The notes under the pieces were generated by a model. It was not told the DNA's origin. It saw only the letters and a list, made by a program, of their open reading frames with translations, and did not search any database. 49,622 nt of DNA from positions 1-49,622 of IMG/VR virus record IMGVR_UViG_3300031784_000050, one strand, 5' to 3'. Position numbers and translations under genes: made by a program. Shown here one piece after another: positions 711 to 47,900 of the stretch. Each line of letters opens with the position of its first letter. Position 1 is the stretch's first letter. The stretch is from a virus.

Positions 711-1829
711 ATGACTGAAGAGATACAACAGATTAAAGAAGAGGCTTCCAAATATTATAACTATGAACAGGCTGTTAAGCTAATGCTTAACTCTATTTAT
801 GGTGCATTTGGTAATCCTTACTTCTATTTCTTTAATGTTGATATTGCGGAAACTATTACTCTTCAGGGAAAGGATGCAATTCTCTACACTGAAAAACTAA
901 TTAATAAATACTTCCGTGAATTTTGGCATAAAGATTTAGAAACCCATAAACAAATGGGTATTACTGTCACTGGTAAAATTGAAAAACCAGTAGGTATTTA
1001 TATTGATACGGATTCAATCTATGTTAAGTTTGATGAAGTTATTGAAAAATCTGATTGGTCTGGCAACGAAAAGGAGTTTATTCTTAACCTCTATAAAACT
1101 AGGTTAGCAGATTATATTGAAAAGATTCTTCAGAAATATGCTGATGATAATAATGCTGAAAACTTCTTAAGCTTTGAATTGGAGAGTATTGCTAAAAATG
1201 CAATATGGCTTGCCAAGAAAAAGTATATGCAAAACATTGTATGGAAAGATCCTGATATTCATTATGATGAACTAAGTAAAATTAGTGCCAAGGGGTTTGA
1301 GATTATTCAATCATCAACCCCACAGTTTGCAAGAGAGAAACTAAAGGAACTGTTAACCTATATCTTTTCAAATAACCAACTAAATATGAAAGAGTTTGCC
1401 GCTTTATTAAAAGATATTAAGAGGCAGTTTAAACTTGCAAATATTGATCAAATTAGTTTCTCTAAAAAGGTTAATAACTATCAAAACTACATTATTAATG
1501 ATTATGATCAATTTGAAATTGGTTCTAAATGCCCAATAGGTGTAAGGGCTGCAGGTTATCATAATTACCTTTTGAATAATAACAATAAACTTAAAGGAAA
1601 GTATAAGCCTTTAGGAAACGGTGAAAAATTAAAAATGTACTTTTCTACTGATAAATCATGTGATGTATTTGCATATACTCCGGGCGAATATCCTTATGAA
1701 TTTTCACCTCAAGTAGATTATGATGTACAATTTGAAAAGACAATTTTAGATCCAATAAATAGAGTAGTAACTGCAATGGGATTTAAGGGATTTAATAGAA
1801 ATCTTATTTATACAACGAGTTTATTCTAA
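711..1829 (+). CDS. 43: DNA polymerase, C-terminal fragment of a split family B enzyme (gp43 C-part)
   Basis: This 372-residue protein begins just before motif B of family B polymerases (KLMLNSIYGAFGN, near residues 23-35) and contains motif C (YIDTDSIYV, near residue 103), then palm and thumb sequence. It ends in TTSLF, resembling the C-terminal clamp-binding peptide of T4-type gp43. The exonuclease domain and palm motif A are absent and are not elsewhere in the window, so the N-terminal half must be encoded separately. T4 gp43 is about 900 residues. It has its own start codon and upstream A-rich element, so it is likely translated independently and assembles with the other half. Split gene 43 is known in some T4-like phages. 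Confidence 0.88.
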   Translation: MTEEIQQIKEEASKYYNYEQAVKLMLNSIYGAFGNPYFYFFNVDIAETITLQGKDAILYTEKLINKYFREFWHKDLETHKQMGITVTGKIEKPVGIYIDTDSIYVKFDEVIEKSDWSGNEKEFILNLYKTRLADYIEKILQKYADDNNAENFLSFELESIAKNAIWLAKKKYMQNIVWKDPDIHYDELSKISAKGFEIIQSSTPQFAREKLKELLTYIFSNNQLNMKEFAALLKDIKRQFKLANIDQISFSKKVNNYQNYIINDYDQFEIGSKCPIGVRAAGYHNYLLNNNNKLKGKYKPLGNGEKLKMYFSTDKSCDVFAYTPGEYPYEFSPQVDYDVQFEKTILDPINRVVTAMGFKGFNRNLIYTTSLF

Positions 1830-1842
1830 AAATAAATAAAAT

Positions 1843-3024
1843 ATGGAAAAAGACAAAAAGTTCAGAATACACGTTTTAGGTTTACCTCATACTAAAACAA
1901 CTAAAGATTTTACTGCTTGTGCCTATACACAAAAGGCATGGAAGTTTTGTAAAATGATGAAATCACGAGGACATTACTTAATGCATTATGGTCATGAAGA
2001 TTCTAACCCGGATGCAAATGAAAACATCACAGTAATTACAAATGATGTTTGGGAAAAGGTTTATGGAAGTCATGATTATAAGACTCATTTATTTAAGTAT
2101 GATACACAGGATGAAGCATATCAAACATTTTATAAAAATGCTATTCAAGAAATAGAAAAGAGAAAACAACCCGGTGATATTATTTTGCCTTTCTGGGGAT
2201 CTGGTGTTCGTCCTATCTGTGATGCCCACCCTGATTTATGTATTATTGAACCAGGCATTGGATATGCAGGTGGTATGTGGTCAGTATTTAAGATCTTTGA
2301 ATCATATGCAATTTACCATGCGTACTGCGGTTTAGGTAATGTAAGTATGTGTCGTCAGAGCTGGTATGACCAGGTTATTCCTAATTATTTTGATCTTGAC
2401 GAATTTGAATATTCAACAAAGAAAGAAGACTACTTCCTTTATGTAGGCCGTGTATATGATGGTAAAGGTGTTAATATTGCAATCCAGGCAACCGAGGCAA
2501 TTGGAGCAAAGCTTAAAATAGCCGGACAAATTGGTGATGAATTTTATACAAAGAATCCGTGGCCTAAACACGTTGAATTCATTGGATATGTTGATGCAGA
2601 ACAGAGAAAGAATTTAATGAAAGGCGCAATTGCATCATTCTTACCTTCAATGTATGTTGAACCTTTTGGTGGAGTTCAAATTGAAAACCTATTATGTGGT
2701 ACTCCAACAATTACGACTGATTGGGGTGCATTTGCTGAAAATAATATTCATGGTGTAACTGGATATCGCTGCCGTTCTTTTGAAGATTTTGTTAAAGCCG
2801 CTCGCGATTGCCAAGCTGGTAAAATTAAATCTATCGATTGCCGTAAGCATGGCGAAAACTTCTCTCTTGAGGCAATTGCTCCAAAATATGAAAAATATTT
2901 TAGAGAAGCCTTATATGTAACACTAGATAAAGGTTGGTACACAATAGAAGATCCAGAATTATATACTAAAAAATGGGTTGAAAAAATGTATTCTACTAAT
3001 AGAGGGAAAAAAAAACCAGAATAG
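1843..3024 (+). CDS. Glycosyltransferase, GT-B fold, GT4-like (first domain of a probable frameshift fusion)
   Basis: A 393-residue protein with a C-terminal nucleotide-sugar binding half: YFLYVGRVYDGKGVNIAI, then an E-x7-E motif of retaining GT4 enzymes (E273 and E281, in EPFGGVQIEN), then LLCGTPTITT. It probably transfers a sugar to phage DNA, a virion protein or a host glycan; the substrate cannot be told from the sequence. It starts 13 bases after the polymerase fragment. The 3' end contains nine consecutive A (3007-3015) just before the stop, and a second glycosyltransferase frame with no start codon follows in the -1 frame. Confidence 0.88.
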   Translation: MEKDKKFRIHVLGLPHTKTTKDFTACAYTQKAWKFCKMMKSRGHYLMHYGHEDSNPDANENITVITNDVWEKVYGSHDYKTHLFKYDTQDEAYQTFYKNAIQEIEKRKQPGDIILPFWGSGVRPICDAHPDLCIIEPGIGYAGGMWSVFKIFESYAIYHAYCGLGNVSMCRQSWYDQVIPNYFDLDEFEYSTKKEDYFLYVGRVYDGKGVNIAIQATEAIGAKLKIAGQIGDEFYTKNPWPKHVEFIGYVDAEQRKNLMKGAIASFLPSMYVEPFGGVQIENLLCGTPTITTDWGAFAENNIHGVTGYRCRSFEDFVKAARDCQAGKIKSIDCRKHGENFSLEAIAPKYEKYFREALYVTLDKGWYTIEDPELYTKKWVEKMYSTNRGKKKPE

Positions 3025-3908
3025 CAACATATAATGAGCCCGGTTGGGCTATAGGACGAATTCATACTGGTCTAGGTAATGCTTTATCTGACGAGTATGA
3101 ATTTGTTCATTTTAACTGGTCTAATTCAGACCATGTTAATTATCTTTGGAGAGATGGTGGGTGGAAAGAATTTGATATTATATTAGGTAATGGCACACTA
3201 TCTGCTATAGAAGGACTTCCTAAAGAAGCATATCAAAAAATGGTATGTGCAATATGGTCTATCCCAAATCTTAGTTCTCATTTTAGAGAAAATATTATAC
3301 CTAGAGAAGGTATTACCTGGTGTTCTGCTGGCGAAGACTTGCAAAAAGTACTTAAAGAACAGTATAATCTGGACTCCTCTCTTATAATAGCTGGCGTTGA
3401 TTCCAAAGAATTTATTCCTAATCGCAAAGTAACAAAGATTAATAAAGTAGGTCTTAATGGAGCCCCTTTCATAAATCCTGGTTGGGATCAGATAAAAAGA
3501 CCTCATATGTTAGTTAACATTGCAAAAGGTATTGGTGGTGATGCGGTATTTATTCATGGTAAAGACTTAGGCGAATCTCGGACTATGTATAATGATATTG
3601 ATATGTATATTTGTACAAGTACTAATGATAGAGGACCTTATGGAATAGCTGAAGCCGCATTTTGTAAAATTCCTGTATTATCAACTAAAACAGGATTTGC
3701 AAATAAATTTAAGAGTATTAAAACATTTGAAACCGTTGAAGAAGCGGTAAGTATCATAAAAGATTTTAATCTTAATCCAGATAAACTTAAAAAATATACA
3801 GAAGAAGTATATGATGAAATAACTAAGGAACTTAATTGGGATAATGTTGTTAATCAATATTGGAAGACTATCTTTAAGGATAAATTTTTATTAAACAATA
3901 GTAAGTAA
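3015..3908 (+). CDS. Second glycosyltransferase domain, no start codon, read by likely -1 frameshift
   Basis: The frame is open from 3003 to 3908. Its N-terminus, TRIATYNEPGWAIGRIHTGL, looks like the natural first strand of a GT-B glycosyltransferase, and the C-terminal half has GIAEAAFCKIPVLSTKTGFA. No ATG, GTG or TTG occurs in frame before 3240, which would cut off about 75 conserved residues. The upstream gene overlaps it across an A9 run containing the heptamer A AAA AAA in the correct phase (3009-3015). A -1 slip there gives one protein of about 688 residues with two GT domains. Alternatives are a homopolymer sequencing error or a real mutation that split the gene. Confidence 0.75.
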   Translation, partial: TRIATYNEPGWAIGRIHTGLGNALSDEYEFVHFNWSNSDHVNYLWRDGGWKEFDIILGNGTLSAIEGLPKEAYQKMVCAIWSIPNLSSHFRENIIPREGITWCSAGEDLQKVLKEQYNLDSSLIIAGVDSKEFIPNRKVTKINKVGLNGAPFINPGWDQIKRPHMLVNIAKGIGGDAVFIHGKDLGESRTMYNDIDMYICTSTNDRGPYGIAEAAFCKIPVLSTKTGFANKFKSIKTFETVEEAVSIIKDFNLNPDKLKKYTEEVYDEITKELNWDNVVNQYWKTIFKDKFLLNNSK

Positions 3909-3931: not shown

Positions 3932-5131
3932 ATGAGTAAAGAATTTTCATTCGACGATTTAAACAAGGAAATGTCAAAACACTCTCAGTATGGAGACACT
4001 CTTGATAAATCAACAGTATCAGAAATTGATCACTTCATCCCAACTGGCAATTTTAATCTTAATGCATGTTTAACCGGCTCCTTTAGTGGCGGATATCCTA
4101 ATAACAGAGCAGTTGCATTAGCCGGACCATCAGGAACTGGAAAAACATTCCTTCTTCTTAATGCAATTAAACAGGCTCAACTTATGGGTTATAGTATTGT
4201 ATTTTACGATTCTGAAAATGCAGTAGATCGTGACCTAGTTGAAAAGTTTGGAATTGATCCTTCAAAATTCCGCTATGAACCGTGTAATACTGTTCAAGAA
4301 TTTAGAAGTTCGGTAACTGCATTAACTGACCTATTAATTGAACAAAAAAGTAAAGGAGTAGAATTACCAAAGATTCTTATTGCATTGGATTCTGCCGGTA
4401 ACCTTGCTACACAAAAAGAAATTGATGATGCCAAGAGTGGATCTGATAAAGCAGATATGACCCGTGCTAAATTATTGAAATCTGCATTTCGTATTCTTAT
4501 GACTAAATTAGGTATCTGTAAGATTCCTTTCTTATTCACTAACCACACATACCAAACACAAGACCTATTTTCACAAACGGTTTCAGGTGGTGGTACCGGT
4601 CCGGAATATGCTGCATCAATCATTCTTTTCTTAGGTAAGGCAAAACTTAAAGAAGGTACAGAACAAACTGGTATTGTTGTAACTGCTAAACCTAATAAGA
4701 ACCGTTTTGCAAAACCTTCTCCAATTAAATTCCACATTTCATTTAGTAAAGGAATGAATCCTTATATTGGATTAGAGGAATATATTAGTTGGGATAATTG
4801 CGGTATTGAAAAAGGAAGATTCATTACAGAAGGTCAATATGAAAAACTAACTGAAGCAGGTAAAACTGAATGTCGTCAACATATTTATAACAGAGACGGT
4901 AAAGAAGTAACCGTTTATTTTCAACCTTCAGCAACCGCTCGTAAATTAGCAGTTGCCCATCTTAATGACCTAGTTGAACTAAATGAATTATTTACGCCTA
5001 GAGTAATCACACAAGATGTTCTTGATCGTTTAGAACCTATTGTTAATGCTAAGTTCTGTTATGGAACTGATGATGTAGATCTTGGTAACCTAACTGAAAT
5101 TCTTTCTGAACATGCTGAAGAAAACGCTTAA
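3932..5131 (+). CDS. uvsX: UvsX RecA-like recombinase
   Basis: A 399-residue RecA/RAD51-type strand-exchange ATPase, the same size as T4 UvsX (391). Walker A is GPSGTGKT at residues 65-72. Walker B is ILIALDSAG with D153. A RecA-like segment SGGGTGPEYAAS follows. In T4, UvsX works with UvsY, gp32, gp41 and the gp46/47 nuclease in recombination-dependent replication, and gp41, gp47 and gp46 are all encoded just downstream. The start is fixed by the upstream element and the full-length N-terminus. The C-terminus is acidic, as is common for the family. Confidence 0.93.
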   Translation: MSKEFSFDDLNKEMSKHSQYGDTLDKSTVSEIDHFIPTGNFNLNACLTGSFSGGYPNNRAVALAGPSGTGKTFLLLNAIKQAQLMGYSIVFYDSENAVDRDLVEKFGIDPSKFRYEPCNTVQEFRSSVTALTDLLIEQKSKGVELPKILIALDSAGNLATQKEIDDAKSGSDKADMTRAKLLKSAFRILMTKLGICKIPFLFTNHTYQTQDLFSQTVSGGGTGPEYAASIILFLGKAKLKEGTEQTGIVVTAKPNKNRFAKPSPIKFHISFSKGMNPYIGLEEYISWDNCGIEKGRFITEGQYEKLTEAGKTECRQHIYNRDGKEVTVYFQPSATARKLAVAHLNDLVELNELFTPRVITQDVLDRLEPIVNAKFCYGTDDVDLGNLTEILSEHAEENA

Positions 5132-9942: not shown

Positions 9943-10923
9943 ATGTCTGCTTATAACCAGGAATTTAATAAAGACAACACAATATTACGATATGTAACTG
10001 TAGCTACTCTTGCTGAATTAAGAAATAAAGTTTACTATTATAATCAGATTGATGAGGATACTGTACAAAAGGTAAATGTACCTTTCTATTATTCTGTTAC
10101 GGGTGATGATCGGTTTCTGGCAGATAACTTCTTATATGATGCTATTGCAGAAGGTAAAGCTATAGGAGATTATGAAGTTGTACCAAGAGGTGTACTTCAA
10201 TTAAATTCTCTTTCAATTGATTCAGGCGCCCAGACAAATAAATTTATTAGAGGTGAATTTGTCAGAGAGTGGAACGGCGTCTTAAAAAGATTTTCACTAG
10301 AGACAAACTTTTTACCTCTTACTATGACATTTGGAGTAACTGTTGTTTGTTCCAATAATCTTGAAATGTTAAAGGTTACCGAATCAATTTTATCAAAACT
10401 CTATAAGACAACTCTTTATAGTGTTGATTTAGGTATGACAAGAGTTCAGGCTGGTATGTCAGTTCCTGAAGACTATAGCCAAGATCGTCTCTTTGAATTT
10501 GCCCTTAACGATAAGAAAGAATTTAATGTAACCTTTGATTTGGAAGTTAAATCATTTATGCCATGTTTTGAAAATGGTGTTCTCTTATCAGAGGTTGATC
10601 TAATAGCCAGAGATTCAATTCAGAGTAACCCTGATGCCGAAGGTGTTGGTCTATTTAGAACTGGACCAAATGGAGATATTGGAATATCATTTGGTGGTGT
10701 ATTCCAGAAATTTGAATACACAATTGATAACATTGCAAAGATTGCTCCAGAAAATGTATTATCCAATAAGCAGTATGTTAATCCTTCTGATATTAATCGT
10801 GGAGGACCTTATATAGAAACTGAAACGACTTCTGCCAACTTTGACTTTGATGCTAAAAAATATGATGATTTAGAGGCACCAGAGAGTAAAGAATACAGAA
10901 ATGCAGAAGATGACGAAGGATAA
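9943..10923 (+). CDS. 15: Tail sheath stabiliser / tail completion protein (gp15-like)
   Basis: A 326-residue protein. The order of features follows T4 gp15: an N-terminal ILRYVTVATLAELRNKV segment, a central MTFGVTVVCSNNLEMLKVTESIL segment resembling the IYELSIFTRYEDDMFQIVEQIL region of T4 gp15, and a following EFNVTFDLEVKSFMPC strand like the T4 SLTFEVNGWMYPP region. gp15 caps the tail and joins it to the neck. It is longer than T4 gp15 (272), with an acidic tail. The match is by eye and not proven. No TATATAAA element is seen upstream. Confidence 0.6.
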   Translation: MSAYNQEFNKDNTILRYVTVATLAELRNKVYYYNQIDEDTVQKVNVPFYYSVTGDDRFLADNFLYDAIAEGKAIGDYEVVPRGVLQLNSLSIDSGAQTNKFIRGEFVREWNGVLKRFSLETNFLPLTMTFGVTVVCSNNLEMLKVTESILSKLYKTTLYSVDLGMTRVQAGMSVPEDYSQDRLFEFALNDKKEFNVTFDLEVKSFMPCFENGVLLSEVDLIARDSIQSNPDAEGVGLFRTGPNGDIGISFGGVFQKFEYTIDNIAKIAPENVLSNKQYVNPSDINRGGPYIETETTSANFDFDAKKYDDLEAPESKEYRNAEDDEG

Positions 10924-10942
10924 TAACTTTAGGATCTTAGAA

Positions 10943-10950
10943 TATATAAA
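10943..10950 (+). promoter_or_regulatory. Late promoter TATATAAA
   Basis: In the context AGAATATATAAA, 19 bases before the ATG at 10970. It decides the start of the downstream gene against the earlier in-frame ATG at 10901. Confidence 0.65.
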
Positions 10951-10969
10951 ACAAATAAAATCATCAAAT

Positions 10970-12799
10970 ATGAGTAAAGCAGTTAATGAAGGACAAACTC
11001 AAGTCTATGCGAATGGTACTATTGAGCCTCAATATGGTGTAAACACTGATGCTCCGTATCTAAATAATCCCCCAAAGCAATTGATTGATCTTATTACCGC
11101 ATTTTATAAAAGTGGTAAATCAGATAGTCAAGTTTTAGCTATTCTTGTAGGAATGGGTACTCCACAACAATTAGCATTATCTGGTATTAATGCATATAAA
11201 GCCGCTGCTCAAACATTCACAACCGAAAACAATCAAAAAAATCATAATAATATGAAATTTACACTTGCAGGCTTGTATGAAAACGTTATGAAAGCCATTA
11301 ATGCATTAAATACGATGGGAGAAGATCAATCACGAGTATCTTATTCCGCAAAAAATGCACTTAACATTTTAGAAAATTCTTTAGGTAATTTTCCAATGAG
11401 ATTCTCTAGCGGAGATATTTCAATAATTAGTGAAGATATTGAAAACAACGTAAACCCCGCTCTTAAATTTAAGATTGCAAAAAATCTTCACAGAGATCTT
11501 GCTGCATCTGAATGGTTAAACCCAGTTAGAGAATTAAGAAGCTATATCATGGCTGCATATGATTCTTCTAAATGGTCATTTAGAATTGCTGAAGCAATCG
11601 ATAGATCAAATTCACAAAAAGGTAAACTATACGAAAGTCTAACCAATCAATTTGAAATTCTTTTAAAAGAATCTTCTGAAGACATTAAATCTAAATTTGC
11701 TATTATTGCTGCAAAGAACCCATGGTCTGCTGAATGTAAAAACATTCTAAACGAAATGGCTTCCTCTGAGCAAAAGGCCTATTCAAATCATGGTGGTAAG
11801 GTTTCTAAAATTCTTTCACCCGTGTTGGAGTCTGAAGAAGGATTAACATTCCACTTACATGGTAAGAACTATATCTTTACCGAAGGTAAGATTTCTGAAA
11901 CTGAAGTAACTGATTCTCGTTTCTTTGATGTTTTAGAAGGTATTAAAATGTTTAAACTTGACGGTAATTCATTAGTTACTTTTTCTGAAAATGGAAAAAC
12001 TTTAGAATATAACCTTACTGAAGGTACATTAAGCTTAGGTGGAGTAGATCTTACCAATGCAAGTATCGTAGAATTAAAGGAATCCCTTATTGCAACAAGA
12101 TTCTTTGGTTATAGAGATCAGTGGAAATCTGATACTGTATGTAAATTCTTTGAGAATGTAGATCTTTTACATGAAATGGATAATTTCACTGGAATTACTT
12201 CTACTGAATTCTTAAATCTTTTCTTAACTGTAATTGCTGTTGAGGAAGGTGTATGGGTTAATAAAGTTAACTTTGGAATGCAGGTAAATGAAATGAAATT
12301 CTATTCATCTGCAACTGAAGCTGTTAAGATGATTAAAGAATTCATTAATTATGATGCATCATCTATTCTTTCTGAAAGATTAGTGGCTGAAGGTAATCAA
12401 AAAGCAGTTGCTGATAAAAAGAGAAATGAAATCAATGATAAAATTTCTTTCTTAGAAGAGAAGAAGAATAAGGTATCTGAAGCAATCAAATCATTAGGAG
12501 ATTCTGAAGAATTACAGGAAGCATTAAAATTAATCAATACCGAAATCATTAAGTTTGAAAAAGAACTTCAAGAAACTTATTCTATAGTTGAAAAAAAAAG
12601 TAAAGACCAATATCTAAACGACGGTTATGTTGAAGCAAAAGTTCAAGATAACGTAAATGGATTAAAGAAAGGTCAAACTGTTTTTGTTAATGCAGAAGAA
12701 TATACTTCTTTAGGTGATACTGATTTACTTAATATCATCGTCCCTGAAACCGATAAATCTAAAATCGTAAAGAAGGCAAGCCTTAAGGTTGAAATTTAA
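10970..12799 (+). CDS. Large late protein of unknown function, probably virion component
   Basis: A 609-residue protein from the ATG at 10970; an in-frame ATG at 10901 lies inside the previous gene and upstream of the late promoter, so I reject it. No known family. The N-terminus is Gln/Asn-rich. The middle is helical. A charged coiled coil covers roughly residues 485-555 (KKRNEINDKISFLEEKKNK and following), and the C-terminal 60 residues look like a small beta domain. A strong terminator follows at 12817. The late promoter and position in the head/tail block suggest a structural or internal head protein. Confidence 0.7.
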   Translation: MSKAVNEGQTQVYANGTIEPQYGVNTDAPYLNNPPKQLIDLITAFYKSGKSDSQVLAILVGMGTPQQLALSGINAYKAAAQTFTTENNQKNHNNMKFTLAGLYENVMKAINALNTMGEDQSRVSYSAKNALNILENSLGNFPMRFSSGDISIISEDIENNVNPALKFKIAKNLHRDLAASEWLNPVRELRSYIMAAYDSSKWSFRIAEAIDRSNSQKGKLYESLTNQFEILLKESSEDIKSKFAIIAAKNPWSAECKNILNEMASSEQKAYSNHGGKVSKILSPVLESEEGLTFHLHGKNYIFTEGKISETEVTDSRFFDVLEGIKMFKLDGNSLVTFSENGKTLEYNLTEGTLSLGGVDLTNASIVELKESLIATRFFGYRDQWKSDTVCKFFENVDLLHEMDNFTGITSTEFLNLFLTVIAVEEGVWVNKVNFGMQVNEMKFYSSATEAVKMIKEFINYDASSILSERLVAEGNQKAVADKKRNEINDKISFLEEKKNKVSEAIKSLGDSEELQEALKLINTEIIKFEKELQETYSIVEKKSKDQYLNDGYVEAKVQDNVNGLKKGQTVFVNAEEYTSLGDTDLLNIIVPETDKSKIVKKASLKVEI

Positions 12800-44320: not shown

Positions 44321-44337
44321 CGTTCTTTAACATATTG
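44321..44337 (+). promoter_or_regulatory. boxA-like antitermination element before tmRNA
   Basis: CGTTCTTTAACATATTG; the core GTTCTTTAACA resembles the boxA of bacterial rRNA leaders (E. coli GCTCTTTAACA). It matches 16 of 17 bases of the element at 45139. Confidence 0.6.
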
Positions 44338-44718
44338 GGGGTGACCAGGTTTTGACGATTAAGCTGAAATTAGGTTACTGATGCAAGCAGGGTTAGATGG
44401 AAACCCTTAAACACCTATCGCACAATAAAAGGCGAAGAGAAATCTTCATTCACCTGGGAAGACGCAATGGCTTTCATTGGTGCTGATTACGCTGTAGCAG
44501 CCTAATCAGTCTCGCACTCATCGTGAGATATTAAAAAGAATGAGAATTCAAGGTCTCGTTCAGAGTACTACCTTATAAGTGAACTCGACATAGTTATTGG
44601 TAACGATGTCAAAATAGGAACCATTTATTTTGGCCATTAAGAAAAATGGCCTAAGCTTGTGAATGAGGGATTTAGGTTCCTTAGTCGGACATGGGTTCGA
44701 ATCCCATCACCTCCACCA
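44337..44718 (+). ncRNA. ssrA: Transfer-messenger RNA (tmRNA)
   Basis: The 5' end GGGGGTG (44337-44343) pairs with CACCTCC (44708-44714). A T-arm with ATGGG-TTCGAAT-CCCAT precedes it, followed by A and an encoded CCA. The tag frame begins at GGC 44431 (Gly-Glu) and ends ADYAVAA, stop TAA at 44503. That gives 24 residues against about 9 to 12 in typical bacterial tags. The rest forms the pseudoknot region. tmRNA rescues stalled ribosomes; phage copies are known but uncommon. Resume point is inferred from the Gly-Glu start common in Bacteroidota tags. Confidence 0.92.
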
Positions 44719-44721
44719 AAA

Positions 44722-44776
44722 AGGATGCATACAGCAACTTTGGACTAGACTTGTAAACTACAACCCAATGCATCCT
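44722..44776 (+). ncRNA. 55-nt structured element, copy 1
   Basis: AGGATGCAT (44722-44730) pairs perfectly with ATGCATCCT (44768-44776). The 5' arm continues ACAGCAACTTT. It is shared with copy 2 at 45411, which has the same length. Located between tmRNA and tRNA-Gly. Confidence 0.6.
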
Positions 44777-44782
44777 GTTTCT

Positions 44783-44855
<73 letters not shown>

Positions 44856-44893
44856 CAAATTCTCACACATGTGAAACAAACACAATGTGAGTA

Positions 44894-44901
44894 TATATAA
44901 A
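44894..44901 (+). promoter_or_regulatory. Late-type promoter TATATAAA in RNA island
   Basis: GTATATATAAATAA, 20 bases before an ATG at 44922, the spacing seen for structural genes. A hairpin (44862-44867 with 44886-44891) lies just upstream. Confidence 0.5.
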
Positions 44902-44921
44902 TAACAAATAAAACAATTTCA

Positions 44922-45017
44922 ATGCAACTGCACGGATGTACATATTGGATTCTTAGTAATGTGGAAAAGAATTTTCCGCAGGCGGATTCAATTACACCAA
45001 GTCCAGGCAGGAGCTGA
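44922..45017 (+). CDS. Micro-ORF with late promoter and terminator (31 residues), or small RNA
   Basis: The frame starts MQLHGCTYWILSNVEKNF and ends PSPGRS. The unit has a TATATAAA promoter at 44894 with normal leader length and a strong terminator at 45041. The transcript also contains a hairpin, GTGGAAAA paired with TTTTCCGC near 44960-44980, so a non-coding role is equally possible. No known family. Confidence 0.42.
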   Translation: MQLHGCTYWILSNVEKNFPQADSITPSPGRS

Positions 45018-45040
45018 TAAGATAAAACACTTATAATACT

Positions 45041-45077
45041 AAGCCTCCTGGATAAAAAATTCCGGGAGGCTTTTTTT
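45041..45077 (+). terminator. Rho-independent terminator in RNA island
   Basis: AAGCCTCCTGG (45041-45051) pairs with CCGGGAGGCTT (45062-45072), one G-U, followed by T7. It separates the tmRNA and micro-ORF units from the main tRNA array. Confidence 0.92.
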
Positions 45078-45085
45078 ATGGGTCT

Positions 45086-45117
45086 CTTTCAGAAAAAGAT
45101 TGAATGAGTTATATTTG
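45086..45117 (+). promoter_or_regulatory. CTTTCAGAAA-N14-TATATTTG promoter of tRNA array
   Basis: The -7 box TATATTTG fits the Bacteroidota consensus TAnnTTTG exactly. The same upstream box and spacing occur at 47901. A start near 45124 would place boxA in the leader. Confidence 0.65.
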
Positions 45118-45138
45118 TTTAGAATAGAATTTCAAATT

Positions 45139-45155
45139 CGTTCTTTGACATATTG
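45139..45155 (+). promoter_or_regulatory. boxA-like antitermination element before tRNA array
   Basis: CGTTCTTTGACATATTG, ten bases upstream of the first tRNA of the array and 22 bases after the -7 box. One base differs from the tmRNA copy. Confidence 0.6.
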
Positions 45156-45165
45156 AGGTACCAAC

Positions 45166-45251
45166 GGAAAGATGGTAGAGTTGGTTGATTACACCGGTCT
45201 TGAAAACCGGCATACCGCGAGGTATCGGGGGTTCGAATCCCTCTCTTTCCG
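45166..45251 (+). tRNA. tRNA-Ser (TGA)
   Basis: Acceptor GGAAAGA/TCTTTCC, discriminator G as expected for Ser; anticodon loop CTTGAAA; long variable arm. Confidence 0.93.
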
Positions 45252-45259
45252 CTTTAAAT

Positions 45260-45330
45260 TGCCCTCTCGTCTAATGGCAGGACATGTGGTTTTGGTCCAC
45301 AGTGTAGAGGTTCGAATCCTTTGGGGGCAA
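45260..45330 (+). tRNA. tRNA-Gln (TTG)
   Basis: Acceptor TGCCCTC/GGGGGCA (one G-U); anticodon loop TTTTGGT; T-loop TTCGAAT. Confidence 0.93.
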
Positions 45331-45335
45331 CATAT

Positions 45336-45408
45336 AGGGAAGTAGCGCAGTTGGTAGCGCACCTGGTTTGGGACCAGGGGGTCGCAGGTTCGAGCCCTGT
45401 CTTCCCTA
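45336..45408 (+). tRNA. tRNA-Pro (TGG)
   Basis: Acceptor AGGGAAG/CTTCCCT; anticodon loop TTTGGGA; T-loop TTCGAGC. Confidence 0.95.
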
Positions 45409-45410
45409 CA

Positions 45411-45465
45411 AGGATACATACAGCAAATTTTATCAAACTGCAACTTTGAAGCCAAAACGTATCCT
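45411..45465 (+). ncRNA. 55-nt structured element, copy 2
   Basis: AGGATAC (45411-45417) pairs with GTATCCT (45459-45465). It shares AGGATxCATACAGCAA with copy 1. The one difference in the 5' arm (G to A at base 6) is compensated by C to T in the 3' arm, so the stem is kept. It sits between tRNA-Pro and tRNA-Thr. Confidence 0.6.
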
Positions 45466-45472
45466 GTATTTT

Positions 45473-45545
45473 GCCTCTGTAGCTCAGTTGGTAGAGCTAC
45501 TGATTTGTAATCAGTGGGTCGTAGGTTCGAATCCTATCGGAGGCT
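45473..45545 (+). tRNA. tRNA-Thr (TGT)
   Basis: Acceptor GCCTCTG/CGGAGGC; anticodon loop TTTGTAA. Confidence 0.95.
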
Positions 45546-45557
45546 CAAACATTATTT

Positions 45558-45631
45558 GGTCCGTTCGTCTAATTGGTTAGGACATCTCCCTTTCACGGAG
45601 AAGCTTACGGGTTCGATCCCCGTACGGACTA
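45558..45631 (+). tRNA. tRNA-Glu (TTC)
   Basis: Acceptor GGTCCGT/ACGGACT (one G-U); anticodon loop CTTTCAC; T-loop TTCGATC. Confidence 0.94.
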
Positions 45632-45637
45632 CAACAT

Positions 45638-45712
45638 TGCGGGGTGGACTGGAGATGGTTCCAGCTCGGTCTCATAAGCCGAACCACATGGGTTCGATTC
45701 CCATCCCCGCAA
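45638..45712 (+). tRNA. tRNA-Met (CAT), probably initiator
   Basis: Acceptor TGCGGGG/CCCCGCA; anticodon loop CTCATAA in stem TCGGT/GCCGA. The GCGGGGTGGA start and CAGCTCGG segment resemble bacterial initiator tRNA. The G-C run of the anticodon stem is partly changed (last pair U-G). Confidence 0.9.
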
Positions 45713-45715
45713 CAA

Positions 45716-45812
45716 AGGTGGTATCTAGACGAAAATGAAATTCCTGCTGTGAAGTCGACTTAATCAGCATATTCAGAAGTAGAAATGAAGGATCGCAAAT
45801 CTTTCGCCACCC
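45716..45812 (+). ncRNA. Unassigned structured RNA in tRNA array (about 97 nt)
   Basis: GGTGG (45717-45721) pairs with CCACC (45807-45811). Inside are a TGCTG...CAGCA hairpin and a GAAGGAT/ATCTTTC hairpin (45787-45805). It is tRNA-sized but lacks a TTCGA-type T-loop and an anticodon arm. Confidence 0.5.
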
Positions 45813-45819
45813 TCTTATT

Positions 45820-45893
45820 GGCTCGTTAGTAGAGATGGTTACAATGTCGCCCTGTCACGGCGAAGGTCACGGGTTCGAGTCCCGTACGGGCCG
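45820..45893 (+). tRNA. tRNA-Asp (GTC)
   Basis: Acceptor GGCTCGT/ACGGGCC (one wobble), discriminator G; anticodon loop CTGTCAC. CCA follows directly in the DNA (45894-45896). Confidence 0.95.
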
Positions 45894-45906
45894 CCAAAAA
45901 ATGCCG

Positions 45907-45963
45907 AGGTTAATGCATAACCTAAAGTAACACGTACGGTTACACAGTAGGAAGGCTACCTAC
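45907..45963 (+). ncRNA. Unassigned RNA: three consecutive hairpins
   Basis: AGGTTA/TAACCT (45907-45912, 45918-45923), GTAAC/GTTAC (45927-45931, 45939-45943) and GTAGG/CCTAC (45947-45951, 45959-45963), all perfect, filling the gap between tRNA-Asp and tRNA-Ala. Confidence 0.5.
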
Positions 45964-45968
45964 ACTTT

Positions 45969-46042
45969 GGGGGTATAGCTCAGTTGGCTAGAGCATCTGC
46001 CTTGCACGCAGAGGGTCGTGGGTTCGAATCCCTCTACCTCCA
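45969..46042 (+). tRNA. tRNA-Ala (TGC)
   Basis: Acceptor GGGGGTA/TACCTCC (one G-U); anticodon loop CTTGCAC. Confidence 0.95.
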
Positions 46043-46046
46043 CTAA

Positions 46047-46119
46047 GATCTCGTAGCTCAGTTGGTAGAGCAATACACTTTTAATGTATGGGCCGCGCGT
46101 TCGAGCCGCGCCGGGATCA
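46047..46119 (+). tRNA. tRNA-Lys (TTT)
   Basis: Acceptor GATCTCG/CGGGATC (one wobble); anticodon loop CTTTTAA; T-loop TTCGAGC. Confidence 0.94.
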
Positions 46120-46129
46120 CAAAAAAATC

Positions 46130-46216
46130 GTACATCATAGTTTTCCCGTTTAGGATGTAGCTATAAGATGTAAATGTGAAAGGCGCAATCACAGTAGGTT
46201 AAGCGATATCCTACAA
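46130..46216 (+). ncRNA. Unassigned structured RNA between tRNA-Lys and tRNA-Leu
   Basis: TACATC (46131-46136) pairs with GATGTA (46154-46159) and GTAGG (46194-46198) with CCTAC (46210-46214). The GTAGG/CCTAC stem recurs in the element at 45947. Confidence 0.42.
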
Positions 46217-46219
46217 CTT

Positions 46220-46300
46220 GCCGAAGTGGTGGAATGGTATACACGCTGGTCTTAGGAACCAGTGCCTAACGGCTTAAGGGTTCGAGTCCCTTCTTCGGTA
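46220..46300 (+). tRNA. tRNA-Leu (TAG)
   Basis: Acceptor GCCGAAG/CTTCGGT (terminal G-U); anticodon loop CTTAGGA; long variable arm. Confidence 0.94.
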
Positions 46301-46305
46301 CTAAT

Positions 46306-46380
46306 GCACCCTTAGCTCAGTGGGAGAGCATCTGCCTTACATGCAGAGGGTCGGTGGTTCGAAACCATCAGGGTGCACCA
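46306..46380 (+). tRNA. tRNA-Val (TAC), CCA encoded
   Basis: Acceptor GCACCCT/AGGGTGC, then A and CCA; anticodon loop CTTACAT. Confidence 0.95.
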
Positions 46381-46497
46381 AGAGAGATAGTGAAGCTGTA
46401 TGATATGGTCTTAATCCCGCTGACTGTCAAAAAGGCATTAGGAGATTCAGATGTGTTGATTATATCACAGAATGCCCGAAAGACCCGAAGTCTCTCT
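46381..46497 (+). ncRNA. Unassigned 117-nt RNA with nested long-range stems
   Basis: AGAGAGA (46381-46387) pairs with TCTCTCT (46491-46497), GGTCTT (46407-46412) with AAGACC (46480-46485), GGCATT (46434-46439) with AATGCC (46471-46476), and TGTG with CACA inside that. All are nested in one axis. It starts directly after the CCA of tRNA-Val. Confidence 0.6.
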
Positions 46498-46502
46498 TTT
46501 AT

Positions 46503-46585
46503 TGGAAGGTGGGTGAGTGGTTAAAACCGGCAGACTGTAAATCTGCTCTCTTCGGAGTACGGCGGTTCGAATCCGTCCCTTCCAA
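46503..46585 (+). tRNA. tRNA-Tyr (GTA)
   Basis: Acceptor TGGAAGG/CCTTCCA; anticodon loop CTGTAAA; long variable arm with TTCG loop. Confidence 0.95.
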
Positions 46586-46590
46586 CATTT

Positions 46591-46664
46591 GGACCTTTAG
46601 CTCAGTTGGTTAGAGCATCGGACTCATAATCCGCAGGTCGCAGGTTCGAGCCCTGCAAGGTCCA
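46591..46664 (+). tRNA. tRNA-Met (CAT), elongator type
   Basis: Acceptor GGACCTT/AAGGTCC; anticodon loop CTCATAA. An Ile-CAT (lysidine) identity cannot be excluded by eye. Confidence 0.92.
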
Positions 46665-46669
46665 CATTT

Positions 46670-46742
46670 AGTCGATTAGTTCAATTGGATAGAACACTTG
46701 ACTACGGATCAAGAGATAAGGGTTCGAGTCCTTTATTGACTA
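46670..46742 (+). tRNA. tRNA-Arg (ACG)
   Basis: Acceptor AGTCGAT/ATTGACT (one G-U); anticodon loop CTACGGA, needing adenosine-to-inosine editing to read CGN. Confidence 0.92.
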
Positions 46743-46747
46743 CTAAT

Positions 46748-46820
46748 GGTGATGTAGCTCAGTTGGTAGAGCAAAGGACTGAAAATCCTTGTGTCGGCGG
46801 TTCGATTCCGTCCATCACCA
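46748..46820 (+). tRNA. tRNA-Phe (GAA)
   Basis: Acceptor GGTGATG/CATCACC; anticodon loop CTGAAAA. Confidence 0.95.
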
Positions 46821-46822
46821 CT

Positions 46823-46899
46823 AAGTAATAGGTAAGCATCTAAGGGGTCTCCTATGTAATATTAGGGCGTGTCTAACCCAAAGCCTCTGCTTATTACTT
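46823..46899 (+). ncRNA. Unassigned 77-nt structured RNA
   Basis: AAGTAATA (46823-46830) pairs with TATTACTT (46892-46899), continued after a bulge by AGC/GCT. An internal TTAG/CTAA hairpin lies at 46862-46876. Between tRNA-Phe and tRNA-Asn. Confidence 0.52.
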
Positions 46900-46903
46900 T
46901 TAT

Positions 46904-46975
46904 TCCTCGGTAGCTCAGAGGCAGAGCACATGACTGTTAATCATGGGGTCGGGATATCGTAATTCCCCCGGGGAG
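46904..46975 (+). tRNA. tRNA-Asn (GTT), unusual T-arm
   Basis: Acceptor TCCTCGG/CCGGGGA, discriminator G; anticodon loop CTGTTAA. The T-loop reads ATCGTAA instead of TTCGAAT and the stem closes with a T-T opposition. Confidence 0.85.
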
Positions 46976-46990
46976 CAAAAACGCTTAATA

Positions 46991-47028
46991 GAACAAAGTA
47001 CAAGTTCAGAACAGGGTGCGGGTCCTGT
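46991..47028 (+). ncRNA. Short structured spacer
   Basis: GAAC/GTTC (46991-46994, 47004-47007) and ACAGG/CCTGT (47011-47015, 47024-47028) hairpins before tRNA-Ile. Confidence 0.3.
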
Positions 47029-47033
47029 GACAT

Positions 47034-47107
47034 TGGAATATAGCTCAGTTGGTTAGAGCATTCGTCTGATACGCGAAGGGTCGGCAGTTCGAGTCTGCCT
47101 ATTCCAA
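47034..47107 (+). tRNA. tRNA-Ile (GAT)
   Basis: Acceptor TGGAATA/TATTCCA; anticodon loop CTGATAC. Confidence 0.95.
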
Positions 47108-47112
47108 CACAT

Positions 47113-47187
47113 GGTGGTTATAGCTCAGTTGGTTAGAGCATCTGATTGTGGTTCAGAAGGTCGTGGGTTCGACTCCCATTAATCACC
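47113..47187 (+). tRNA. tRNA-His (GTG)
   Basis: Acceptor GTGGTTA/TAATCAC with an encoded extra G(-1) at 47113 opposite C73, the His identity pair; anticodon loop TTGTGGT. Confidence 0.94.
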
Positions 47188-47193
47188 CATAAT

Positions 47194-47264
47194 GGCACTA
47201 TGGCCGAGTGGTTAGGTGGAGGTCTGCAAAACCTTTCACACAGGTTCGATTCCTGTTGGTGCCT
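47194..47264 (+). tRNA. tRNA-Cys (GCA)
   Basis: Acceptor GGCACTA/TGGTGCC (one wobble), discriminator T as expected for Cys; anticodon loop CTGCAAA. Confidence 0.94.
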
Positions 47265-47272
47265 CAATAAAT

Positions 47273-47345
47273 GCGTCTGTAGCTCAGTTGGTAGAGCACT
47301 GGTCTCCAAAACCAGGTGTCGGTGGTTCGAACCCATCCAGGCGTG
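47273..47345 (+). tRNA. tRNA-Trp (CCA)
   Basis: Acceptor GCGTCTG/CAGGCGT (two wobbles), discriminator G; anticodon loop CTCCAAA. Confidence 0.94.
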
Positions 47346-47362
47346 CGAAATACATAAAATGA

Positions 47363-47812
47363 ATGAAGGTGTTTAGAAAGACAAATGGAGTCAAGGTTAA
47401 TGTGATAGATCACACCCTCGAGCAGTTAAAGAATTATCCTCATGCATCGATTCACATTGGAACCGATTCACAAAATCATGGTGATGTAACTATGTATAGC
47501 ACAGTGATAGCATATCGCTTTGGATCATCAGGTGTACATTATATTTTTACTAAACATAAAATGCCAAAGATCACTGATATGTGGACACGTCTTTGGAAAG
47601 AAGCCGAGATGAGTATTGAAACCGCTGAATGGCTTACACAACAGATTAATGTTAAGGTTCAAATTGATATGGACTATAACGGAGATGAAGAACACAAATC
47701 ATATAGAATTATTTCTGCGGCTAAAGGGTGGGCAAATTCTCTGGGCTATAAAGTAAATGTAAAACCTAACGAGCAAATTGCAACTCGTGCAGCTGATTAT
47801 TGCTGTAGATAA
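47363..47812 (+). CDS. RNase H-like nuclease (DUF458/YkuK-like) inside tRNA array
   Basis: A 149-residue protein with IHIGTDSQNHGDVTMYSTVIAY, the opening strand and Asp of the YkuK/DUF458 RNase H-like family, a central QIDMDYN and a closing ATRAADYCCR, giving candidate metal ligands in each. It begins 17 bases after tRNA-Trp and ends one base before tRNA-Ser, so it belongs to the tRNA transcript. A role in RNA processing or turnover is possible but unproven. An ATG at 47359 in another frame is not used. Confidence 0.72.
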   Translation: MKVFRKTNGVKVNVIDHTLEQLKNYPHASIHIGTDSQNHGDVTMYSTVIAYRFGSSGVHYIFTKHKMPKITDMWTRLWKEAEMSIETAEWLTQQINVKVQIDMDYNGDEEHKSYRIISAAKGWANSLGYKVNVKPNEQIATRAADYCCR

Positions 47813-47813
47813 A

Positions 47814-47898
47814 GGAAGGTTACCCAAGTGGTGAAGGGGGCAGTTTGCTAAACTGTTAGGTCGGCAACGGCGCGAGGGTTCGATCCCCTCACCTTCCG
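47814..47898 (+). tRNA. tRNA-Ser (GCT)
   Basis: Acceptor GGAAGGT/ACCTTCC, discriminator G; anticodon loop TTGCTAA; long variable arm. Last tRNA of the array. Confidence 0.94.
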
Positions 47899-47900
47899 CT

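Follow-up and report, generated by a model that had tools for sequence, protein, structure and literature searches.

Two glycosyltransferase reading frames of an uncultured T4-like phage, here called GT1 and GT2, are very probably joined by recoding at an uninterrupted run of eight to ten A residues (A8-A10), judging from the conservation of the run and of the frames around it. The window, that is, the whole stretch of DNA analysed, is 49,622 nt long (IMG/VR virus record IMGVR_UViG_3300031784_000050), and its junction carries nine A's (A9). We lean toward RNA polymerase as the main machine that slips. The evidence is about evenly balanced for a broader reading of this T4-like phage clade, in which RNA-polymerase slippage on A9 would be a device shared by two genes, producing a glycosyltransferase fusion (gained or lost repeatedly against an ATG-started state) and a truncated tail-adjacent protein, with long A and T runs purged elsewhere in the coding DNA and a host that is probably a member of the Bacteroidota. 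We infer from sequence that slippage occurs, that it is transcriptional and what role the enzyme has.

The GT1-GT2 junction and its relatives

The features of the junction in the window are as follows.

1843..3024, + strand: GT1, GT4-type glycosyltransferase ORF, 393 aa (PHROG phrog_3408, Pfam PF00534)
3003..3908, + strand: GT2 frame, -1 relative to GT1, with a GT-B fold domain from 3015
3007..3015, + strand: A9 run, the candidate slippage site, with an in-phase A AAA AAA at 3009-3015
3022..3024, + strand: zero-frame stop of GT1 (TAG), 6 nt past the A9
3037..3050, + strand: AGCCC/GGGCT hairpin named in the original prediction; not conserved

The context of the run in the GT1 frame is AGA GGG AAA AAA AAA CCA GAA TAG, with AGAGGG (3001-3006) abutting the A9. 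The GT2 frame is open for 301 codons (3003-3905) and the two open frames overlap by 22 nt, in which the A9 is the sole long homopolymer. When the GT2 frame was scanned for ATG, GTG and TTG, none was found upstream of an ATG at 3240 (codon 80), which lies 75 residues inside the domain. A -1 slip on A AAA AAA (3009-3015) would yield a GT1-GT2 product of 688 residues (391 + 297). The original prediction had described this A9, the two frames with their coordinates, the missing GT2 start and the 688-residue product, and all of these are as it stated.

The window junction, including the A9, is identical in five separate IMG/VR assemblies (contigs from other samples); the A9 therefore cannot be put down to faulty assembly. 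All 14 distinct sequences that have this gene arrangement place GT2 in the -1 frame, with an uninterrupted A8-A10 in a short overlap; they share ancestry and are not independent of each other. The claim that two glycosyltransferase domains are joined by a -1 shift at an A run is supported by these sequences, in which related phages do retain overlapping frames at the run. The relatives' GT2 is 36-76% identical to that of the window (36-44% in the most distant), and by this measure the junction site has outlasted much of the GT2 protein sequence. The junctions of the relatives (L numbers denote loci) read as follows in the GT1 frame.

L006/L010, L007, L008/L009: GAG AAA AAA AAA CCA GAA TAG
L022: ACT AAA AAA AAC TAA
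L023, L024: GAG AAA AAA AAA CAA AAA TAG
L025: GAA AAA AAA AGC TAG
L026: GTA AAA AAA AAA TTA GAG TAG
L104: GAA AAA AAA AGC TAA
L109/L110: GGT AAA AAA AAA CTG AAA AAG AAG TAA
L112: AGT AAA AAA AAA CTA GCA CCA AAG AAG TAA
L115: GTA AAA AAA AAA GAA TTG ATA ACC CTT TAA
L188: TCA AAA AAA AAC TAA

Across relatives the zero-frame stop of GT1 lies 0-6 codons 3' of the run. The shortest overlaps of the open frames are 13 nt in L025 and 10 nt in L022, and the latter means that the shift must take place within the A run. ATG, GTG and TTG are absent from the GT2 N-terminus in the 14 distinct sequences, except for a GTG in L025. The coding DNA of these phages (484,623 nt) contains 23 runs of at least eight A's, nine of which are at one other conserved site; given this scarcity, a run is expected by chance in about 1 in 1000 overlaps (of up to 43 nt), and it is seen in 14 of 14. 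Among four close relatives, synonymous-site change in the last interval of GT1 is 0.08 of that expected, a strong constraint over the run alone. Downstream of the run it is 0.59 of expected in the close relatives and 0.91 in all nine, a weak constraint that gives no pointer to a structured stimulator. Between the window and L007, dN is 0.048 and dS 0.79 for GT1, and dN is 0.17 and dS 0.90 for GT2; by these estimates both halves are under purifying selection. Since many distinct relatives conserve the A-run arrangement, it is a product of evolution and not an artefact of sequencing.

A pattern scan of genome contigs for the junction motif gave 55 matches in unrelated bacteria, which were taken as chance. 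Reassignment of TAG was rejected as an escape, as GT1 of several relatives terminates at a TAA and the window encodes no tRNA with a CTA anticodon. A literature search of openly accessible papers found none on a phage glycosyltransferase frameshift.

Other relatives lack a usable A run, and in them the N-terminus of GT2 has an ordinary ATG start (S-CAM7, L105-L108, L111, L113, L117, L142, L179 and L180). The original prediction had held a normal start codon for the second gene in relatives to be evidence against it; such starts are found only in these sister lineages, none of which has a usable run, and this strengthens the case for recoding. In S-CAM7 (KU686213.1), GT1 and GT2 overlap at an ATGA, with the ATG at L092:3568 and GT2 at L092:3568-4470. 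The annotated S-CAM7 protein AOV62207 begins at a TTG 60 nt downstream of the GT1-overlapping ATG, and use of the upstream ATG restores the conserved N-terminus. L111 has an A9 in GT1 (near 5116), upstream of its ATG-started GT2, where a -1 shift hits a TAA; this run may be a relic or a precursor. The GT1 tree, which was made by a quick method and has many weak branches, needs at least three changes of frameshift state, so that this state appears to have been repeatedly gained or lost. The ATG-started GT2 is already in the -1 frame in S-CAM7, L111, L113 and L117, and therefore loss of the ATG and growth of an A run would suffice to convert one state into the other. Several GT1 relatives (L114, L116, L118, L121, L129, L135, L141, L142 and L163) have an in-frame fusion to another domain on the C-terminal side; read by eye, this domain looks like a SAM-dependent methyltransferase.

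RNA polymerase or ribosome as the candidate slipping machine

If RNA polymerase slips, most mRNAs would retain nine A's and give GT1 alone, a 393-aa protein with the C-terminus KKKPE. In some of the transcripts the polymerase would insert one A into the run; the slipping polymerase is presumably the host enzyme, and T4-like phages usually rely on host RNA polymerase. Translation of the A10 mRNA would then pass from GT1 into the GT2 frame and produce the 688-residue two-domain glycosyltransferase, and no free GT2 would be produced in run-bearing lineages.

The same fusion could be made from an unaltered mRNA by programmed -1 ribosomal frameshifting, in which tandem tRNA-Lys would re-pair on A AAA AAA (A AAA AAC in L022) with no strong stimulators. 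We consider this possible but unlikely. An in-phase A_AAA_AAN heptamer (A_AAA_AAA or A_AAA_AAC) is present in each lineage and in 14 of 14 sequences, so ribosomal slippage alone could suffice, and the phage encodes its own tRNA-Lys(UUU) and tRNA-Asn(GUU). In Escherichia coli about 61% of heptamers of the A_AAA_AAN type are prone to shift with no stimulator present, and frameshifting at A_AAA_AAC has been proven for insertion sequences, where no stimulator is established (PMC4066793). Stimulated frameshifting of the dnaX/IS911 type calls for a Shine-Dalgarno (SD)-like element at proper spacing and a conserved downstream structure, and neither was found at the junction. The original prediction had pointed to AGAGGG and the AGCCC/GGGCT hairpin as stimulators; both exist in the window but a stimulatory role is not supported, since they are absent from most relatives. 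An SD-like AGAGGG was sought in the relatives and is missing from most, and the hairpin is lost in L022, L025, L026, L104, L109 and others and probably reflects coding constraint (NEPGWAIG). The 80 nt downstream of the window A9 do not fold significantly better than shuffled sequences (z -1.20). Across relatives the z-scores of this region run from +1.3 to -3.3 with no common structure in pseudoknot-free folding, the unusually stable cases being L025 and L026 (z -2.9 and -3.3).

The length and phase of the runs also count against the ribosome. Seven A's would do for ribosomal slippage, but the junction runs are of 8-10; transcriptional slippage calls for a homopolymer of about nine, with eight at the limit. 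By lineage the runs start at codon position 1, 2 or 3. AAG never interrupts the run, and the efficient motif A_AAA_AAG never occurs at the junction, although 33% of Lys codons are AAG. Relative to synonymous shuffles of the same 484,623 nt of coding DNA, A runs of length 6 occur at 0.86-1.07 of expectation, those of length 7 at 0.44-0.54 and those of length 8 at 0.11-0.45; runs of at least nine are near 0 of expected apart from the second site described below. T runs of at least nine number 0 against 16.9 expected, and A_AAA_AAG is mildly depleted (0.71). Avoidance of A runs thus follows length and hardly depends on codon phase, a pattern that replication slippage or mutation bias would give as well. 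In many bacterial genomes, selection against transcriptional slippage usually appears at length nine (PMC1088944), and the A11 of tssM slips at 20-25% (PMC4256274). This length-dependent and phase-independent avoidance, together with the absence of an AAG break and of a conserved stimulator, favours RNA-polymerase slippage over ribosomal slippage. Ribosomal slippage, as implied in the original prediction, is not supported as the clear mechanism, and the run-length and phase data point toward transcription.

Further support for slippage by RNA polymerase comes from a second A9 that these phages conserve.

10901..12799, + strand: second A9-bearing gene, 632 aa, no Pfam or PHROG family match
12591..12599, + strand: second A9 run, GAA AAA AAA AGT AAA, read as AAA AAA AAG TAA after a -1 shift

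The gene directly follows one for a T4-gp15-like tail sheath stabiliser (9943-10923). Coding runs of at least nine A's number 11 in the 484,623-nt sample, and nine of the 11 are at one orthologous place, window 12591-12599. The only others are an A11 (L213) and an A10 (L215) on one contig, G003, which also has the most A8 runs. In every ortholog read out, to 54% identity and with two opposite-orientation loci (L254 and L257) excluded, the run at the second site is A9 (A10 in L214), and it is present also in lineages whose GT2 has a normal ATG. In the orthologs read out, no more than about two codons separate a -1 shift from a stop; the zero frame continues for 67-69 residues past the run and the -1 product is shorter by those residues. 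The residue after the run varies only among Ser, Thr and Asn codons beginning with A. In a homolog from LR756500.1 (29% identity), which lacks the A run, the C-terminal region is in frame. From these features the second site looks like a programmed truncation of the dnaX type.

GT2 might instead be made as a separate protein, by termination at the GT1 stop and reinitiation close to it, at a non-standard codon such as the AUA at 3021. Sister lineages do have a separate ATG-started GT2, and the ATGA overlap of S-CAM7 is typical of translational coupling; however, the AUA is not kept (GTG in L025, GTA in L026 and L109, CTA in L188), in every lineage the GT2 frame extends upstream across the A run without a stop, and this reading would leave the run unaccounted for, making reinitiation very improbable. 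Slightly less probable still is phase variation, in which the run would be a contingency tract: replication slippage would change its length in the DNA, so that GT2 would be on in some phage individuals and off in others. Some bacteria do use homopolymer tracts within glycosyltransferase genes for phase variation, but an "on" allele, with one more base in the run and the frames joined, is not among the 14 distinct sequences and five identical assemblies, all of which are in the -1 state. Finally, homopolymers are prone to sequencing error, but an error (a possibility that the original prediction had raised) or a decaying pseudogene can practically be dismissed, as the frame relation is constant across many separate assemblies and lineages at 36-76% GT2 identity and both reading frames are under purifying selection.

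The glycosyltransferases, their possible role and the host

GT1 matches the PHROG glycosyltransferase family phrog_3408 (E 1.1e-163) and Pfam PF00534 (Glycos_transf_1; E 3.8e-19), as expected of a GT4-type enzyme with a GT-B fold, and also resembles solved tetrahydrobiopterin glucosyltransferases. Its AlphaFold2 model, from a shallow alignment, has a pLDDT of 35.6. GT2 (~297 aa) matched no PHROG family, reached PF00534 only below the curated cut-off (E 4.5e-4) and gave no tblastn match against the phage collection. The AlphaFold2 model of GT2 has a mean pLDDT of 83.8, its first beta strand being residues 2-7 of the frame read from 3015, and its best Foldseek matches in the PDB are GT4-like GT-B enzymes (E 6.7e-09). 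The T4 glucosyltransferases AGT and BGT are not among the family matches of either domain or the 50 fold matches listed.

In the two end regions compared, of 8905 and 4322 bases, every base of the window agrees with IMG/VR contig 3300008107_000017 (139.8 kb). This contig encodes thymidylate synthase and a second member of that family, closest among solved structures to CMP 5-hydroxymethylase and T4 dCMP hydroxymethylase; the dCMP/CMP-hydroxymethylase-like protein is at L206:8254-9135, on a contig of the same phage. Such a gene suggests that the phage DNA contains hydroxymethylated cytosine. The glycosyltransferase pair is flanked by genes for a B-family DNA polymerase and for RecA/UvsX, which is the position of beta-gt in T4. 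The hydroxymethylase-like gene and this T4-like position make glycosylation of hydroxymethylcytosine the leading idea. We tentatively propose that the tandem enzyme may add one or two sugars to hydroxymethylcytosine in phage DNA; the two linked domains likely add sugars to one acceptor. The chief alternative acceptors are structures of the virion or of the host surface, because the cyanophage GT1 adjoins tail-fibre and 2OG-oxygenase genes. Relatives of the terminase and capsid proteins indicate that the host is probably a member of the Bacteroidota.

The B-family DNA polymerase ORF of the window (711-1829) starts after a sliding-clamp-like gene, and its match to PF00136 is confined to the later part, profile positions 142-379 of 453; a split polymerase is possible. 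The window also carries (44337-47899) a tmRNA gene, with the tag GEEKSSFTWEDAMAFIGADYAVAA, and 22 tRNA genes, which cover most amino acids and include tRNA-Lys(UUU).

Significance and comparison with known systems

Known recoding in tailed phages is mostly ribosomal and mostly in virion genes. If the present reading is true, these phages gain a recoding site that makes an enzyme and is probably transcriptional. The relatives show an ATG-start gene, a frameshift fusion and an in-frame GT1-methyltransferase-like fusion together, making a path from coupled genes to a recoded fusion traceable, and the second conserved A9 offers an independent test of the mechanism within one phage. ORF callers that depend on start codons will miss or shorten GT2 in these genomes.

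The closest counterpart of the pair is in S-CAM7 (KU686213; AOV62206 and AOV62207), where GT1 is 63% identical and a GT2 of similar length has the N-terminus MKRIAFFTYNEWAFGSIH, against TRIATYNEPGWAIGRIH in the window. The S-CAM7 GT2 is taken as a homolog on the basis of synteny, a motif common to the two N-termini and a profile alignment that is weak (hhalign probability 33%, E 4e-4). Unlike those of the window, the S-CAM7 glycosyltransferases are encoded separately, in genes that overlap at an ATGA and carry no A run. The GT4 enzymes PimA, MshA, BshA and BH4-glucosyltransferase share the GT-B fold with GT2 and PF00534 with GT1, whereas GT2 is short (~297 aa) and falls outside PHROG families. 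Like T4 with its alpha-gt and beta-gt, the phage has a dCMP-hydroxymethylase-like gene and has glycosyltransferases between DNA polymerase and UvsX/RecA genes, but the best structural matches are GT4-like enzymes and not the T4 DNA glucosyltransferases.

The junction resembles the -1 frameshift sites of phages (the tail chaperone G-GT and capsid extensions) and of IS911 and IS1 in its A-rich heptamer and in the pairing of a short and an extended product. It differs from them in having no conserved SD-like element, stem-loop or pseudoknot, in joining genes for enzymes and not for virion proteins or a transposase, and in a run longer than the heptamer. Transcriptional slippage at bacterial poly-A is described for the A9 of Thermus thermophilus dnaX, the A11 of Citrobacter rodentium tssM and Shigella mxiE/spa13 (PMC1088944, PMC4256274, PMC5009743). 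Unlike these bacterial cases, the present sites belong to uncultured T4-like phages, the first of them would link two glycosyltransferases, and heterogeneity of their mRNA is a prediction. In common with the bacterial genes, the junction has an unbroken A run close to where the zero frame ends, an early stop and a further domain encoded in the shifted frame, and at the second site, as in dnaX, a shift at A9 reaches an early stop.
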